64,000 bases of DNA from Crossiella cryophila (GTDB taxonomy: Bacteria > Actinomycetota > Actinomycetes > Mycobacteriales > Pseudonocardiaceae): positions 9,027,501-9,091,500 of the forward strand of contig NZ_JACHMH010000001.1 in the NCBI RefSeq assembly GCF_014204915.1, read 5' to 3'. The first letter of the stretch is position 1. Each line of letters starts with the position of its first letter. The translations under genes were made by a program, and so were the position numbers. Positions 21,433-60,360 of this stretch are shown one piece after another. Under the pieces are notes generated by a model that was not told where the DNA came from, ran no database searches, and worked only from the letters and a program-made list of their open reading frames with translations.

Positions 21433-22371
21433 GTGAACTACCTGCTCGCCGACCGCTATCGGCTCGACGGTGAGCTGGGCCGGGGCGGGATGAGCGTGGT
21501 CTGGTACGGATTCGACACCGTGCTGGAGCGCGAGGTCGCGATCAAGGAACTGCGCACCCCGCCGGACTGGTCCGCCGCCACCGCCGCCGCCCACCACGAG
21601 CGCATCCGCCGGGAGGCCACCAGCGCCGCCCGGCTGGATCACCCGAACGTGGTTCGGGTGCACGATCTGGTGAGTGCGGACGGTAGGCCGTGGATTGTCA
21701 TGGAACAAATTCCGAGTCGATCACTGCAACAGGTGGTCGACGAGGACGGCGCATTGCCGCCGATGCTGGTCGCCCGGATCGGACTGGCGGTGGTGGAGGC
21801 ACTCGACAACGCGCACCACCGCGGGATTCTGCACCGGGACGTGAAACCGGCGAACATCCTGATCGCCGACGACGGGCAGATCTTCCTGACCGATTTCGGG
21901 GTGGCCCGGCTGACCGAGGCGGAAACCGCGGCCACCACCGGCGCACTGCACGGCTCCCCCGGCTACATCGCGCCGGAGCGGCTGAAGGGCCAGCTCCCCC
22001 GGCCCGCCTCGGACTTCTGGTCGCTGGGCGCGACGCTGTTCACGGCGGTGGAGGGCAGATCGCCGTACACGCGGGAAACCGCGGCCGCCACGCTGACCGC
22101 GACGATCACCGCGGAACCGCCGACCACCTCGAAGGCCGGGGTGCTGGGGCCGGTGGTCTCGGCCCTGCTGCGGCGCAATCCGGTGGACCGGCCGGGGCCG
22201 GACCAGTTGCGCGAGCAGCTCGGCCGGATCATGGCCGGACGGGCGGGCTCGCCGCCCCCGCCGAAGCCGACCACCGCGCCGCCGCCCCGACGCACCAGCC
22301 TGGTGTTCGCGGGCATGACCATGCTGGCGCTGAGCGTGGCCATCCTGGTGTACCTGTCGCTGACCCCCTGA
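21433..22371 (+). CDS. Ser/Thr protein kinase with a C-terminal transmembrane anchor
   Basis: A 312-residue protein beginning with GTG. The kinase domain fills residues about 8-265: [38 protein letters not shown] and GSPGYIAPERL. A short Pro-rich linker leads to a single hydrophobic segment at the very end (LVFAGMTMLALSVAILVYLSL) with only a few residues after it. It therefore has no extracytoplasmic sensor domain, unlike PknB. The targets are unknown. A 140-base AT-richer gap separates it from the histidine kinase gene, so it probably has its own promoter. Confidence 0.92.
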   Translation: MNYLLADRYRLDGELGRGGMSVVWYGFDTVLEREVAIKELRTPPDWSAATAAAHHERIRREATSAARLDHPNVVRVHDLVSADGRPWIVMEQIPSRSLQQVVDEDGALPPMLVARIGLAVVEALDNAHHRGILHRDVKPANILIADDGQIFLTDFGVARLTEAETAATTGALHGSPGYIAPERLKGQLPRPASDFWSLGATLFTAVEGRSPYTRETAAATLTATITAEPPTTSKAGVLGPVVSALLRRNPVDRPGPDQLREQLGRIMAGRAGSPPPPKPTTAPPPRRTSLVFAGMTMLALSVAILVYLSLTP

Positions 22372-22379
22372 CTCCGTCG

Positions 22380-22527
22380 GAGTGTTGGCCGTTCCGGTAC
22401 GGGGTGTTGGCCGTTCTGGTACAGGGTTTTGGCCGCTTCGGTACGGCCCGGCCGAGGCTGGGGCGCGACGCTGGGTGGCCCTGCGTACAACAAGTGCCAA
22501 CCCGGCGTACGAGAACGGCGAACACCC
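22380..22527. repeat. Extragenic inverted array of 22-bp units (array A, degenerate)
   Basis: Three forward units (22380-22401, 22402-22423, 22424-22445), then a 38-base centre, then two reversed units (22484-22505, 22506-22527). All are exactly 22 bp. The forward core is GTGTTGGCCGTTNNNGTAC. The third forward unit and both reversed units carry substitutions (for example TTTTGGCCGCTT and GTGCCAAC). The array lies between two convergent genes, ends 18 bases before the binding-protein stop codon at 22546, and contains no gene. Compared with the arrays at 38.6 and 60.0 kb the arm order is swapped (forward first). Confidence 0.85.
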
Positions 22528-22545: not shown

Positions 22546-24027
22546 TCAGGCGGCGCGGATGGCCGCCAGGCGGAGGCCGGTGACGGGGTCCGGGGTGACG
22601 TCTGACAGCCGGGTGGACCAGTACAGGTGACCGTGCGGCGACCACAGCGGGGCCAGCGGCAGCTCGCGCAGCGCGATGTTCTCCGCCAGCCGCAGCTCCC
22701 GGTCGGCCGCCGCCGAGGTGTCCGCGCCGGCCAGGAGTTCGGCGAAGGTCGGGTGGGTGAAGCCCACCCGCGCGGCCAGGGTGGCCAGCAGGGCGGTCGG
22801 GTGGGGGTAGGTGGCGCGGGCGGTGAGCAGGTAGGGGCCGTCGAAGCGGCGGTGTTCGAGCCGGTCGGCGTACTCGGCGGCGGGCAGGCCCTTGGTGGTG
22901 ATGGCCTCGGCGTTGAGGGACAGCCGGAGCTGGGCGGCCAGGGGTTCGATCCAGGTGCGGTGGTCGGTGTCCTGGTCGAAGTACACGGTGAGGTTCTTGG
23001 GCAGTTCGCTCTGCCTGGCCAGCAACGCCGCGGCCTGGACGTCGTGGTTGCAGGGGCGGCAGGCGGAGTCCTTGCGGTCCGCGCCCAGGGCCGAGGGCAG
23101 CAGGGCGGTGGCCGGGGTGACCCGGTGCGCGAGCGGGCCGGTGGCCAGGGCCTCGCGGTCGATGGCCATGGACAGGGCGTGCCTGCGGGCCGGGTCGGCG
23201 TACCCGGGTCCGGCCGGGAAGGCCAGGTAGGTGGTCTCCGGTTGCGGCCAGGTGCTGCTGCGGTTGGCGAACTGGCTGGTCAGCTTGCCGTGTTCGGCGG
23301 CGGGGATCTCGGTGGCCAGGTCGATGCCGCCGGCGACGAGCTGGTTGTACTGGGTTTCCGCGGTGGCCACCACGACCTTGATCGACTCGGATTTGGCCTT
23401 GGTGGCGCCGGCGTAGGCCGGGTTGGCGGTCAGCCGGATGCCCTGGGACCACTGGCCTTCGGCGCGGTAGGGGCCGTTGCCGATCAGGGTGGTCCAGTCC
23501 CGGCGGGTCAGGGCCTGCTCGGACAGCGGCGCGAGCAGGCTGCTGGTGAGCGCGACCGGGAAGTGCCGCTGGGCGGCGGCCAGGGAGACCTCCAGGGTGA
23601 GGTCGTCCGGGGTGCCCACCTCCTGGACCTGGAGCTGATCGAGGAGTCCGGCGGCGGCCCAGCGCTGTTGCCGGGCCATCGCCCAGGTCTGGGCGTAGGC
23701 GCGGGCGGTGACCGGGGTGTTGTCGTGGAAGCGCCAACCCGGGCGCAGCCGGATCGTCCACCGACGTTGGTCGGGACTCTCCACCTTCTCCGCGGCCGCC
23801 GGGACCGGGGCCGCCGCCGGGTCGTCCAGGGTCATCAGCGGTGTCCACAGCGCGCCGACCAGCAGCTTCCCTGGCTGGTCCACGGCCTGTCCGGGCAGCA
23901 GCGCGGCGGGTTCGGTGACCGCGACGGTGAAGGCACCTGGCTGGGCGGGCGCCGGGGCCTCCGGGGTGGTGCAGGCGGTCAGACCGCTGATCGCCAGGGC
24001 CATCAGCAGGGCGTTGCGGCGGCGCAT
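22546..24027 (-). CDS. ABC transporter substrate-binding lipoprotein, family 5 (peptide/nickel type)
   Basis: A 493-residue lipoprotein. The signal MRRRNALLMALAISGLTAC ends in an L-T-A-C lipobox. The mature part has family-5 binding-protein features: WTIRLRPGWRFHDNTPVTARAYAQTW near residue 85, GNGPYRAEG, and AIDREAL in the C-terminal lobe. These proteins capture oligopeptides or similar solutes outside the membrane. No permease or ATPase gene is adjacent, so it is an orphan or serves a remote transporter. The ATG at 24027 is chosen because AGGAGG lies 8 bases upstream and the signal peptide starts there; the frame runs on to 24081. Confidence 0.88.
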   Translation of the reverse strand: MRRRNALLMALAISGLTACTTPEAPAPAQPGAFTVAVTEPAALLPGQAVDQPGKLLVGALWTPLMTLDDPAAAPVPAAAEKVESPDQRRWTIRLRPGWRFHDNTPVTARAYAQTWAMARQQRWAAAGLLDQLQVQEVGTPDDLTLEVSLAAAQRHFPVALTSSLLAPLSEQALTRRDWTTLIGNGPYRAEGQWSQGIRLTANPAYAGATKAKSESIKVVVATAETQYNQLVAGGIDLATEIPAAEHGKLTSQFANRSSTWPQPETTYLAFPAGPGYADPARRHALSMAIDREALATGPLAHRVTPATALLPSALGADRKDSACRPCNHDVQAAALLARQSELPKNLTVYFDQDTDHRTWIEPLAAQLRLSLNAEAITTKGLPAAEYADRLEHRRFDGPYLLTARATYPHPTALLATLAARVGFTHPTFAELLAGADTSAAADRELRLAENIALRELPLAPLWSPHGHLYWSTRLSDVTPDPVTGLRLAAIRAA

Positions 24028-36779: not shown

Positions 36780-36879
36780 GTTCCCTCCTCAGAAACTCCC
36801 TCTGCATGGGTGCGCCCGACACGCTACCCATGGCTCGTCCACACAGGATTGTCGGTGCCATCGCGCAGAATCGCTCGTG

Positions 36880-38529
36880 ATGCGTATCGCGGTGGTGACC
36901 AGCCCCAACGGGGAGGCGAGACTGCGCGAGCTGGCCGAGGACGGGCAGCCCGTGAGCGAGGTCACGTCCACCACTGCCCTTGCGGGCACCATGGCGGCGC
37001 TGGAACAGGCCCATCACCCGCGCTGGGTGCTCGCGAGCAGTGCCGAGTTGTACCCGCAGCTGCTGCGGGCCGGGGTGCGGCTGGAGCGGTGCCATGACCT
37101 GGAGCTGACCGAGTCGCTGCTGTCGGGGTACGCGGGCCGGTGGGGGGAGCCGAGGGGGCTGGCGGCGGCGTACGCGCGGCAGGCCGGGTTGCCGGTGCTG
37201 CCGGATCCGCCGGTGCGGCCGCGGGATGAGCACCCGGTGTTGTTCGAGACGGCGCGCAACGATCTGGTGGATCTGGATCCACTCGACGCGGTGATCGCGG
37301 TGCACCGGGATCAGCAGGCCCGGATCGCGGAGCTGCCGCAGCCAGGACGGTTCCGGTTGCTGGTGGCGGCGGAGTCGGCGGGTGGGCTGGCTGCGGTGGA
37401 GCTGGGGCATGTGGGGGTGCCCTGGCGGGTGGACATCCACGACGCGCTGCTGACGGAGTTGCTGGGGCCGCGGCCGCCGCTGGGGGCCACGCCGCCCCGG
37501 CTGGTGGAGCTGACCGAGCAGATCATCGAGGCGTTCGGCGGGCGGCGGTTCCATCCGGATTCGCCTGCCGAGGTGCTGCGGGCGTTCGCCAAGGCGGGGT
37601 TCTCGTTGCCGTCCACGCGGTCCTGGGTGATCAAGGGGGTTGATCACCCGGGGGTGCCGTTGTTGTTGGAGTACAAGGAGCTTTACCGGATCTACACCGC
37701 GCACGGGTGGTCGTGGTTGTCGGCCTGGGTGCGGGGTGGGCGGTTCCGGGCGGAGTGGGTGGCGGGGGGTGTGGTCTCCGGGCGGTGGGCGACCCGGGGC
37801 GGGGGTGCGTTGCAGATCCCGAAGACGGTGCGGCGGGCGGTGGTCGCCGATCCGGGGTGGTCGCTGGTGGTCGCCGACGCGAGTCAGTTGGAGCCGCGGG
37901 TGCTGGCCGCGCTGGCCGGGGATCAGCGGTTGGCGGCGGCCGGGGCCAGTGGGGATCTGTACTCGGCGCTGGCGGATGAGGCTTTTGGCGGGGACCGGGA
38001 TCGGGCGAAGATCGGGATGCTGGGGGTGATGTACGGGCAGACCTCGGGCGGGGCCGGGGAGTTGCTGGCGGCGTTGCGGAAGCGGTATCCGGCGGCGATC
38101 GAGTATGTGGAGCGGGCGGCTCGGGCCGGGGAGTTGGGTGGGCTGGTCCGGTCGCATCTGGGGCGGACCTGTCCGCCGCCGGGGAGTGAGTGGCAGGGGA
38201 TCGTGGAGGACGCGGAGACCGAGACCAGCCAGGCCCGGCAGGCTCGGGCCCGGGGGCGGTTCACCCGGAATTTCGTGGTGCAGGCAACGGCTTCCGAGTG
38301 GGCGCTGGCGTTGCTGGCCTGCTTGCGGACCAGCCTGCCCGCTCCGGCGGAGCTGGTGTTCTTCCAGCACGACGAGGTGATCGTGCACTGCCCGAGCGAG
38401 CTGGCCGAGGCGGTGGTCGAGGTGGTCCGGGATGCGGCGGAGCGGGCTACCCGGTTGCTGTTCGGGGACACACCGGTCCGATTTCCGTTGAGCGCGGCGG
38501 TCGTCGGGTGTTACGGAGATGCCAAGTAG
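36880..38529 (+). CDS. Minimal family-A DNA polymerase (annotated elsewhere as bifunctional 3'-5' exonuclease/DNA polymerase)
   Basis: A 549-residue protein. The C-terminal half keeps the polymerase-A active site: motif A VVADASQLEPRVLAAL (catalytic Asp near 333), motif B RDRAKIGMLGVMYGQ (near 373) and motif C FFQHDEVIVHC (near 496). The N-terminal 280 residues take the place of the 3'-5' exonuclease domain but lack an obvious D-x-E metal motif, and there is no 5' nuclease domain. It is far shorter than PolA (about 900 residues). The ATG at 36880 is chosen (MRIAVV); GTG one codon earlier is possible. A repair or mobile-element-defence role is only a guess. Confidence 0.85.
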   Translation: MRIAVVTSPNGEARLRELAEDGQPVSEVTSTTALAGTMAALEQAHHPRWVLASSAELYPQLLRAGVRLERCHDLELTESLLSGYAGRWGEPRGLAAAYARQAGLPVLPDPPVRPRDEHPVLFETARNDLVDLDPLDAVIAVHRDQQARIAELPQPGRFRLLVAAESAGGLAAVELGHVGVPWRVDIHDALLTELLGPRPPLGATPPRLVELTEQIIEAFGGRRFHPDSPAEVLRAFAKAGFSLPSTRSWVIKGVDHPGVPLLLEYKELYRIYTAHGWSWLSAWVRGGRFRAEWVAGGVVSGRWATRGGGALQIPKTVRRAVVADPGWSLVVADASQLEPRVLAALAGDQRLAAAGASGDLYSALADEAFGGDRDRAKIGMLGVMYGQTSGGAGELLAALRKRYPAAIEYVERAARAGELGGLVRSHLGRTCPPPGSEWQGIVEDAETETSQARQARARGRFTRNFVVQATASEWALALLACLRTSLPAPAELVFFQHDEVIVHCPSELAEAVVEVVRDAAERATRLLFGDTPVRFPLSAAVVGCYGDAK

Positions 38530-38548: not shown

Positions 38549-38702
38549 CGTACCACAACGGCCAACATGCCGTACGAAAACGGCCAACACTCGGTACGAC
38601 AACGGCCAACACGCGCGGAGGTCGGAACTTCGCCCGGCGTGTTGGCCGTTCTTGTACGGAGTGTTGGCCGTTGTGGTACGCCGTGTTGGCCGTTGTGGGA
38701 CG
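38549..38702. repeat. Extragenic inverted array of 22-bp units (array B, best preserved)
   Basis: Six units of exactly 22 bp. Three reversed (38549-38570, 38571-38592, 38593-38614) and three forward (38637-38658, 38659-38680, 38681-38702) flank a 22-base centre. The forward core is GTGTTGGCCGTTNNNGTAC, with the last unit reading GGAC instead of GTAC. Only the 3-base spacer and the unit ends vary. The centre (AGGTCGGAACTTCGCCC) resembles that of the array at 60.0 kb. It lies between the convergent polymerase and MBL genes. Folded as RNA it would give a stem of over 60 pairs with small internal loops at the spacers. Confidence 0.92.
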
Positions 38703-38750: not shown

Positions 38751-39548
38751 TCAGGGTTCTTGGGTGTAGGCGAGGTAGCGGGCTGCTGAGCGTTGGACGA
38801 TTTCGTGGGCGTTGGTTTCGATCTTCGAGTCCCACCAGGCGCCGTAGATCGTGTTGAACGACAAGGGCTTGAGGAGTTCCGCGGCGCGGCGGACCACGGC
38901 CGGGCGTTCGGGGATCAGGTTGGGGTAGCTGTACATGAAGGCCACGTGGGTCCGGTCCGGGATCACCTGGACGATGTCGCCGGTCAGCAGGGTTTGGCCG
39001 CGATGCAGGACCGTGCCGCCGGCGAAGTGGACGCCCAGGTTGATGAGGGTCACCTCGTCCAGGAGGGTCTTGTGGGTGCCGGACCAGAGGTGGATGCCGG
39101 GGTCTGGGCGGCCGATCCACTGGGCGTCGTTCTCGTGCAGGTGGATGGGGGCGTCGAAGGTGTGGGACCACTCGACCATGGTGGTGTAGTAGTGCGGGTG
39201 GCTGATGGCGATGGCGTGCAGGCCGCCCTGGTCGTTGATCTCGGTGATGATCTCGTCGGTCAGGTAGGCGGTGCAGTCCCAGAGGATGTTGCCGTTGGGG
39301 GTGTTCACCAGCAGGGCTCGTTGGCCGATGGCGAAGCGGGGGTTGGTGCCGATACCGGTGAGGCCGGGGCCTTCGGGTTCGATGCGGGCCGAGAGGGCCG
39401 GGTCTGCGCGCAGGTCCTCGAAGGTGGTCCATTGCTGGCCGGTGCTGGGGACGTACTGACGTTCGTCGGTGCAGATGGGGCAGTCCGGGCGGGGCGCCGC
39501 GTATTGGGTGCCGCAGGTCCGGCAGATGGGGCGGGTGTGGCTGGCCAT
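38751..39548 (-). CDS. MBL-fold protein with N-terminal zinc ribbon and atypical metal site
   Basis: A 265-residue protein. The first 30 residues carry two C-x2-C knuckles (CRTCGTQY, CPICTDER), a rubredoxin-like zinc ribbon. The rest is a metallo-beta-lactamase fold: GILWD-like NILWDCTAYL, ISHPHYYTTMVEW, VHFAGGTVLH and LLTGDIVQVI. The signature that is normally H-x-H-x-D-H reads H-P-H-Y-Y-T, so two of the usual ligands are missing. It may bind one metal or be non-hydrolytic. The ATG at 39548 has GGAGG 7 bases upstream; the frame runs on through the opposite genes to 40781 but that part is a shadow. Confidence 0.85.
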   Translation of the reverse strand: MASHTRPICRTCGTQYAAPRPDCPICTDERQYVPSTGQQWTTFEDLRADPALSARIEPEGPGLTGIGTNPRFAIGQRALLVNTPNGNILWDCTAYLTDEIITEINDQGGLHAIAISHPHYYTTMVEWSHTFDAPIHLHENDAQWIGRPDPGIHLWSGTHKTLLDEVTLINLGVHFAGGTVLHRGQTLLTGDIVQVIPDRTHVAFMYSYPNLIPERPAVVRRAAELLKPLSFNTIYGAWWDSKIETNAHEIVQRSAARYLAYTQEP

Positions 39549-59958: not shown

Positions 59959-60133
59959 CGCCCACAACGGCCAACACCCCGTACAACAACGGCCAACACA
60001 CCGTCCCAGAACGGCCAACACGCCGAGAGCTTGAAACCTCAGCCCGCGTGTTGGCCGTTGTCGTACCGAGTGTTGGCCGTTCTGGTACAGGGTGTTGGCC
60101 GTTGTGGGACACCACGTTGGCCGTTGTGGGACG
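59959..60133. repeat. Extragenic inverted array of 22-bp units (array C)
   Basis: Three reversed units (59959-59980, 59981-60002, 60003-60024), a 21-base centre, then four forward units (60046-60067, 60068-60089, 60090-60111, 60112-60133). Every unit is 22 bp. The forward core is GTGTTGGCCGTTNNNGTAC; outer units have GGAC, and the last begins ACGTTGGCC. The centre (GAGAGCTTGAAACCTCAGCCC) can be aligned with that of array B. It lies between two genes in the same orientation, so it is not confined to convergent gene ends. Confidence 0.92.
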
Positions 60134-60151
60134 GGGATGCGGCCTGGTGGG

Positions 60152-60250
60152 CGGGCGGAGCCCGGAGCGGTGGGCGTTGGTGGCAGGCGGGCGAAGCCCG
60201 GGAACGATGCGGCTAGGCGGTGAGGACGCGCCGCGACCGGGCGAAGCCCG
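60152..60250. repeat. Three CGGGCGRAGCCCG mini-hairpins
   Basis: CGGGCGGAGCCCG at 60152-60164, CGGGCGAAGCCCG at 60188-60200 and again at 60238-60250. Each is a 5-bp stem with a GNA triloop. Spacing is 36 and 50 bases. They sit between array C and the GNAT gene and resemble short interspersed palindromes of other actinobacteria. Confidence 0.7.
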
Positions 60251-60360
60251 AACACAAGCAGACGGGGTGGCTTTTCAACACTCCCCGAGCGGTTCCCCCA
60301 TCCTTTGATTTCTGCCCGTCCGGCGAGGACGCCCTTGATCTTGATCTCCCTAACTGAAGA

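Follow-up and report, generated by a model that had tools for sequence, protein, structure and literature searches.

Two rows of near-identical units face each other between the ends of two convergent genes in Crossiella cryophila. This locus raises the question of what maintains such an array, and in particular whether its arms pair as an RNA stem or its units are read one by one. The array (array 2) lies in the window, which is the whole stretch of 64,000 nucleotides that was analysed. A scan of the window with GTGTTGGCCGTTNNNGTAC at up to three mismatches identified 18 matches, compared with a mean of 0.33 in 100 shuffles (largest 3). The features discussed below are as follows.

21433..22371, plus strand: protein kinase domain protein, left neighbour of array 1
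22382..22525, no single strand: array 1, three plus units (22382, 22404, 22426) facing two minus units (22485, 22507)
22546..24027, minus strand: extracellular solute-binding protein family 5, right neighbour of array 1
36877..38529, plus strand: DNA polymerase family A domain protein, left convergent neighbour of array 2
38550..38612, minus strand: left arm of array 2, three units (38550, 38572, 38594) at a 22-bp step
38613..38638, no strand: centre of array 2, 26 bp between the arms, GCGCGGAGGTCGGAACTTCGCCCGGC
38639..38701, plus strand: right arm of array 2, three units (38639, 38661, 38683) at a 22-bp step
38751..39548, minus strand: right convergent neighbour of array 2, no Pfam match at E 0.001
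59959..60132, no single strand: array 3, three minus units, centre 60022-60047, four plus units, 22-bp steps
60147..60350, no strand: non-coding repeat module adjoining array 3, a separate repeat

Array 2 contains six units (38550-38701) at exact 22-bp steps, three per strand, with 0-1 mismatch each. The stop codon of the left gene lies 20 bp ahead of the first unit, and that of the right gene 49 bp past the last unit. Array 1 is also placed between convergent genes; its minus units at 22485 and 22507 have 3 and 1 mismatches, respectively, and follow 22-bp steps. The NNN triplets of array 2 are GTG, TTC, and GTC in the left arm (minus-strand reading), and CTT, GTG, and GTG in the right arm. 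The sequence-only reading had described six units, three in each orientation, with a near-invariant core, had pointed out TTC facing GTG, and had announced two further arrays of the same family; all of this was borne out, including the core, which is also constrained between species. No known Rfam RNA matched the window at gathering score.

We favour the explanation, at a rough probability of 0.45, that the arrays are operator-like rows for a putative sequence-reading, probably DNA-binding factor, and that they might form a two-way boundary at gene ends. The reader, we infer, would be a protein that binds double-stranded DNA and is common to several genera.

Unit, step and pairing of the arms

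The unit was searched in the whole genome (a 10,058,141-bp contig, in which the window occupies 9,027,501-9,091,500). At up to two mismatches, 929 units were found (473 plus and 456 minus), compared with 14 copies of the reversed control word (6 plus, 8 minus). The strands are also mixed among the 100 of 163 places listed (to 7.3 Mb). The strand polarity of a replichore-polar motif (KOPS type), as one kind of segregation site would show, was thus not supported. The spread along the chromosome is patchy. Between about 0.40 and 1.74 Mb (1.3 Mb), no exact unit is among the matches listed, and the only triple-core matches listed there are two at 633 kb, which look coding-like.

The sampled DNA of this genome, comprising 80 evenly spaced 20-kb stretches and targeted loci, contains 644 units in 129 clusters. 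The unit extension behind the cluster and arm-pairing counts considered 22-bp neighbours only; the step count from exact cores is free of that restriction. Among 577 exact cores, 435 are followed by a same-strand TTGGC within 38 nt, at 22 bp in 374 cases, at 21 bp in 57, and elsewhere in 4. The strict 22-bp period claimed earlier therefore holds for the arrays of the window and fails genome-wide. The step also differs among relatives: it is 22 for 61 of 71 following cores in the congener G016, and 21 for 43 of 46 in G092. The congener G108 has 69 at 22 and 36 at 21 (118 following cores), and the congener G055 has 40 at 22 and 6 at 21 (50 following cores). In the even 1.6-Mb sample, 156 of 181 exact cores have a second core no more than 60 bp away; the other 25 are isolated and in no excess over the 29 copies of the reversed word. 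A common sequence with random spacing was thus not borne out.

The site in this genome can be written TTGGC...T.G.AC (positions 4-8, 14, 16, 18, and 19). The 374 units followed at 22 bp were selected by the exact core TGTTGGCCG, which fixes positions 2-10; beyond the core, they keep T14 in 369, G16 in 373, and both A18 and C19 in all 374. Positions 13, 15, and 20-22 are widely variable. Position 17 is T or G with a single exception, and 17=G is coupled to 15=G in 83 of 87 units (up to two mismatches). T14 and G16 are conserved although they are flanked by the free positions 13, 15, and 17.

Neighbouring runs of units have opposite orientation in 103 of 106 cases (sampled DNA of this genome). 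Two geometries were found. In minus-centre-plus arrays, the unit starts on either side of the centre are mostly 44-48 or 53-55 bp apart; in plus-minus arrays, the length of the centre varies between a few bases and about 800 bp. Helical phasing was not found for the distance across the former centres.

Inverted rows of this kind could act in RNA. In the transcripts of both convergent genes, the array would form one long stem serving as a terminator or as a 3' stabiliser of the mRNA, and array 2 is indeed predicted to fold as a single 160-nt hairpin (-127.9 kcal/mol for the plus strand and -118.8 kcal/mol for the minus strand). Such an RNA hairpin is rather unlikely in our judgement, even with several observations in its favour. 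Of 87 convergent or tandem gaps in which three or more cores occur, 85 hold both strands (54/55 convergent, 31/32 tandem). This also counts against operator rows, because the inversion is kept even between same-direction genes, and a hairpin would need inversion whereas operators would not. Of 34 distinct centres of minus-centre-plus arrays, 20 fold with z below -1 relative to shuffled sequence, and the mean z is -1.8; the centre of array 2 folds no better than its own shuffles (z 0.1). The location at gene ends is likewise expected of a hairpin.

Covariation of the facing units speaks mostly against pairing. In the minus-centre-plus set (57 arrays, 141 facing pairs), the variable positions -3, -1, 13, and 15 are identical in 39.0% of comparisons versus 40.7% permuted, and positions 20-22 in 46.6% versus 45.9%; identity in the innermost pairs falls below the permuted value (43.0% vs 51.6%, P 0.0025). 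In the plus-minus set (42 arrays, 91 pairs), the pooled value for positions -3, -1, 13, and 15 is 45.1% versus 40.0% permuted, an excess that disappears under index-by-index comparison, and the linkers at positions 20-22 are less alike than permuted ones (33.3% vs 38.9%). Selection against pairing was considered for the innermost and linker deficits and rejected, since these are few among many tests and absent in other sets. On the side of separately read sites, one array has GTT opposite GAA in the two outer pairs, both in this genome and in G055. On the side of the hairpin, positions 11-12 of the innermost plus-minus pairs are alike in 63% versus 46% permuted. Pairing may therefore matter at the centre. 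The earlier statement that pairing is not maintained base by base is correct for the variable positions of minus-centre-plus arrays; it does not extend to positions 11-12 of the innermost plus-minus pairs.

Pairing inside one array does not require an identical core across the genome. The genome-wide core identity, together with T14 and G16 between free positions, is unexplained by a stem, and a trans-acting reader would fit. The core constraint, the phased spacing within arms, and the lack of pairing upkeep at variable positions favour repeated factor sites. The folding centres, the likeness at positions 11-12, and the unphased distance across the centre are evidence to the contrary. The earlier preference for protein-binding sites over an RNA stem thus gains from the core constraint and the phasing, while the near-universal inversion and the folding centres leave room for a hairpin role.

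Placement at gene ends

Genes were predicted by a codon-based caller trained on this genome, which was also applied to the relatives. The clusters are intergenic: 127 of 129 overlap predicted genes by at most 20 bp, and only 11 of the 156 clustered exact cores in the even sample lie within predicted genes. Arrays lying inside coding sequence, which the sequence-only reading had named as refuting it, were thus not borne out. Among the 124 of 129 clusters that have both neighbours, 73 are between convergent genes, 42 between same-direction genes, and 9 between divergent ones. In the background, convergent gaps account for 236 of 1346 (binomial P 9e-25 for the enrichment). Among gaps of at least 150 bp, an array is present in 17 of the 45 that are convergent, in 7 of the 152 tandem ones, and in 2 of the 113 divergent ones; Fisher tests of gap occupancy support the convergent concentration (P 4.5e-9 and 8.8e-8). 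Mapping against gene ends, which the sequence-only reading had proposed, placed a flanking stop codon within 30 bp of 90 of the 124 clusters (median distance 15 bp). The unit nearest the stop codon points away from the gene in 63 cases and towards it in 54, so there is no orientation preference, which suits a two-way element.

Relatives show a similar placement. Arrays are between convergent genes in 10 of 11 cases in G055, 7 of 12 in G016, and 20 of 28 in G108 (with five more at locus edges, and at least one locus counted twice). The signal is weaker in G092 (8 of 21 convergent, 12 tandem).

The arrays do not fit the pattern of intrinsic terminators, in which a T tract follows a GC hairpin. 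A simple in-house rule identified T-tract terminators in 8 of the 89 array gaps that are convergent or tandem (one of the 8 spans 5.6 kb and probably contains overlooked genes), and in 12 of 264 array-free convergent or tandem gaps of at least 100 bp. At L155, in the gap after position 2148, the array has a stop codon on one side and a classical T-tract terminator on the other; this terminator is conserved in G108 (L276). Both the rarity of T tracts and this separate conserved terminator weigh against the RNA hairpin. A gene for the binding protein adjoining the arrays was also considered. Ten neighbours at five loci, covering six of the nine divergent-context clusters (L017, L095, and L104 were left out), encode seven enzymes, one LysR regulator, and two proteins without a Pfam match, and this candidate was rejected.

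Under the preferred reading of operator-like rows, each 21-22 bp unit would carry one site. A step of about two helical turns would stack neighbouring sites on one face of the DNA, so that several copies of the factor might bind side by side. With inverted row pairs placed directly after stop codons, chiefly in convergent gaps, the bound factor could form a two-way boundary, which would stop or slow RNA polymerase arriving from either gene, or hold the torsion accumulating there. The factor might be common to part of the Pseudonocardiaceae, with the dialect of the site altered between genera. Two observations count against a boundary: 218 of 236 convergent gaps of any length are array-free (18 with an array), and the congener G086 lives almost without arrays.

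Conservation and spread among relatives

The loci of arrays 1 and 2 were compared in four congeners, and arrays were found at three of the eight relative loci. In G108, both loci carry short arrays built from a variant unit (TTGGCCCAA...GTAC). In G055, the array 1 locus contains seven units and the array 2 locus a hairpin module; G086 has overlapping convergent gene ends (stops) at the former and module sequence at the latter; G016 has no array at either. In the reverse direction, 17 distinct gaps of relatives, each with three or more cores, were placed in the sampled DNA of this genome, and three (L132, L140, and L142) were excluded because they had been fetched on account of arrays in this genome. 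Among the 14 distinct gaps that remain, 13 also hold at least three cores here, the exception being L200 without cores; part of this DNA had been selected for its arrays, and within the even sample by itself the figure is 2 of 3. The chance expectation is about a quarter, an estimate from the 18/236 occupancy and the sampling rates under independence.

The alignment between species comprised 64 units from 18 gap comparisons, two of which repeat one gap pair (9 units). There are 1-2 changes at each of positions 4-8 and none at G16, compared with 24 at position 11, 24 at 12, 27 at 13, 28 at 15, 31 at 21, and 33 at 22; positions 13, 15, 21, and 22 thus differ in 42-52% of the aligned units. Intermediate numbers were found at positions 2 (20), 9 (10), 10 (8), 14 (8), and 17 (12). 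Most of the compared rows stay in place, while constraint covers only part of the unit.

These comparisons bear on a selfish REP-like repeat, which would spread by a transposase or by copying and settle at gene ends, where harm is least. The high copy number, the palindromic layout, the patchy occurrence within the family, and the near-absence in G086 are consistent with it, as are arrays at only three of the eight loci matching arrays 1 and 2, and the spread of the adjoining non-coding modules. We consider it quite unlikely, because the gaps of relatives are mostly shared, the free positions have strongly diverged while the cores have not, a Y1 transposase domain was found in only 3 of 13 array-bearing genomes tested, and no matches were found in viral contigs, plasmids, or phages.

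The module at 60147-60350 is itself dispersed, with at least 39 further places in this genome at 81-98% identity (40 of 217 candidates scored). It is often inside or beside arrays, and matches are also present in G055, G086, and G108. At L037, L047, and L031, paired arrays of this genome lie in gaps of 845-995 bp, compared with gaps of 87-356 bp with arrays in relatives; these large gaps look as if the arrays were insertion targets. A mobile-core gene between paired arrays was sought at L038, L036, and L032 and rejected, since the 700-800 bp share no gene. The intervening DNA is hairpin-rich non-coding sequence that matches the dispersed module.

The core at its spacing, whose search in this and related genomes had been suggested earlier, was found in arrays across this genome and in relatives. 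At up to one mismatch, the full unit has 157 matches in G016, 201 in G055, 239 in G108, and 3 in G086, and 32 of 244 other family genomes have 1-6 matches each. Triple-core matches within the genus number 408 in this genome, 236 in G108, 140 in G055, 64 in G016, and 3 in G086 (control 0-1). G086, nearly array-free, still carries module sequence. In the G108 draft, arrays lie near contig ends, and beside a run of N at L206; arrays may break short-read assemblies. Among named genomes, a tandem unit pair was found in 25 stretches, all from Crossiella sp. S99.2 (this genome was possibly outside the scan).

Across 120 genomes of the family, a looser triple-core pattern was present in 21, of which 12 reach at least 20 matches, in six genera. 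The control gave few matches, the largest number being 18 in G030, itself without a true match. Close relatives inside array-bearing genera can be empty: G019 has 64 matches, and G057 and G109 have none. Arrays of other genera were inspected at ten loci of G159, G009, G111, G010, and G197, and at ten of twenty of G092; those of G019, G020, G024, G062, and G090 are known from pattern counts alone. The core has different dialects, such as GTGTTGGCC in this genome, GTGTTNGCC at a 21-bp step in G092, and rows of GTGTCCGCA and GTGTTTGCA in genus g24. At L188-L192 and L194-L195 of genus g24, units of GTGTCCGCA, GTGTTTGCA, and GTGTTGGCA occur in mixed rows, so several dialects stand side by side, and in one array the step is about 21 bp. 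In G019, G020, and G009, the number of TTGGCC pairs is close to that of the control, which suggests that the cores there are mostly others. The units of G092 share little beyond a 9-10 bp core (judged by eye), a further point against the RNA hairpin. Outside the family but within the phylum, the pattern GTGTTNGC matched none of 395 genomes; this pattern is narrower and would not detect units of the g24 type.

A topology or nucleoid site might also be considered, at which gyrase, another topoisomerase, or a nucleoid protein absorbs positive supercoils, as proposed for E. coli BIMEs, which are linked to gyrase. It would account for the concentration in convergent gaps and for phased multi-site rows. 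We regard it as unlikely, since an array is present in so few convergent gaps, the region of about 0.40-1.74 Mb has no exact unit or triple-core array listed (bar one coding-like repeat), and G086 is nearly without arrays. A pan-actinobacterial enzyme would also leave unaccounted for why arrays occur so unevenly among family members and are absent from genomes outside the family.

The operator-like rows can be framed more specifically as a family-restricted boundary. A putative oligomerising DNA-binding protein would have an estimated 200 docking rows and would form a factor-dependent two-way transcription boundary; its dialects would change together with the protein by genus, with occasional near-complete loss as in G086. 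This fuller version is doubtful, and we hold it only tentatively.

Comparison with known systems

To our knowledge, bacterial gene-end repeats are mostly hairpin terminators or REP elements. Here, the constraint lies on a phased non-palindromic word in inverted rows; the gap is usually retained between species, and the remainder drifts. Literature searches, judged from their listings, gave no description of these arrays, and searches with exact unit strings gave matches that were unrelated by title and abstract. The repeats in the portion of PMC4210621 that was consulted differ from these arrays.

The closest comparison is with the REP elements and BIMEs. In the parts consulted, REP elements are described as hundreds of intergenic copies in opposite orientations, mostly after genes, in convergent or same-direction gaps (PMC3733652), and BIMEs as binding several proteins (PMC2817692). 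As far as these parts go, the REP/BIME systems (GTAG and CGTC superfamilies, RAYT-associated) resemble the arrays in copy number, intergenic place at gene ends, and alternating orientation, and the roles proposed for them are termination, stability, and supercoiling. The arrays share the intergenic position, the location after genes, and the alternating orientation. However, each REP forms a palindrome of its own, 20-40 bp long and with a GTAG or CGTC end, whereas the array unit is non-palindromic: GTGTTGGCCGTTNTNGTAC is not self-complementary, and only facing rows pair. Unlike in REP, it takes a pair of rows, with units spaced 21-22 bp apart, to make the palindrome. A cognate RAYT (Y1_Tnp, PF01797) was absent in 10 of the 13 array-bearing genomes tested; matches were found in this genome (G000, with an internal stop), G108, and G024. 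Among nine other genomes (including G058, with few triple cores), G109 gave a weak partial match. RAYT was thus rejected as the mover of the arrays. The suggestion of a REP-like mobile element, in the strict sense, is not supported by this distribution or by the 13 of 14 shared gaps.

Plasmid iterons are phased direct repeats of about 22 bp that are read by Rep proteins. The arrays resemble them in direct repeats at about two helical turns, with one protein site each in the iterons, and, as judged from sequence, also in phasing and constraint per unit. They differ in being chromosomal, in forming 129 clusters in the sampled DNA, in their inverted rows at gene ends, and in having no plasmid match; array 2 had none among 72,556 plasmid records.

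A word for DNA uptake or self-recognition, as in Neisseria or Haemophilus, would also be present in hundreds of copies, with inverted pairs after genes and dialects between genera. Neisserial and Haemophilus uptake sequences occur as inverted pairs in terminators, and uptake words are scattered singly, also inside genes. Unlike these, the arrays have no isolated copies above the control and consist of phased rows instead of pairs, which makes an uptake word extremely improbable.

If the arrays are read by a protein, these actinobacteria would own a factor-dependent insulation of convergent genes. G086, which belongs to the same genus and is yet nearly array-free, offers a natural comparison for finding the protein that would read them. 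In eukaryotes, rDNA terminators (TTF-I/Sal box, Reb1) place rows of protein sites after genes as roadblocks. The proposed operator-like rows might be compared with these terminators by analogy, in their way of working only.
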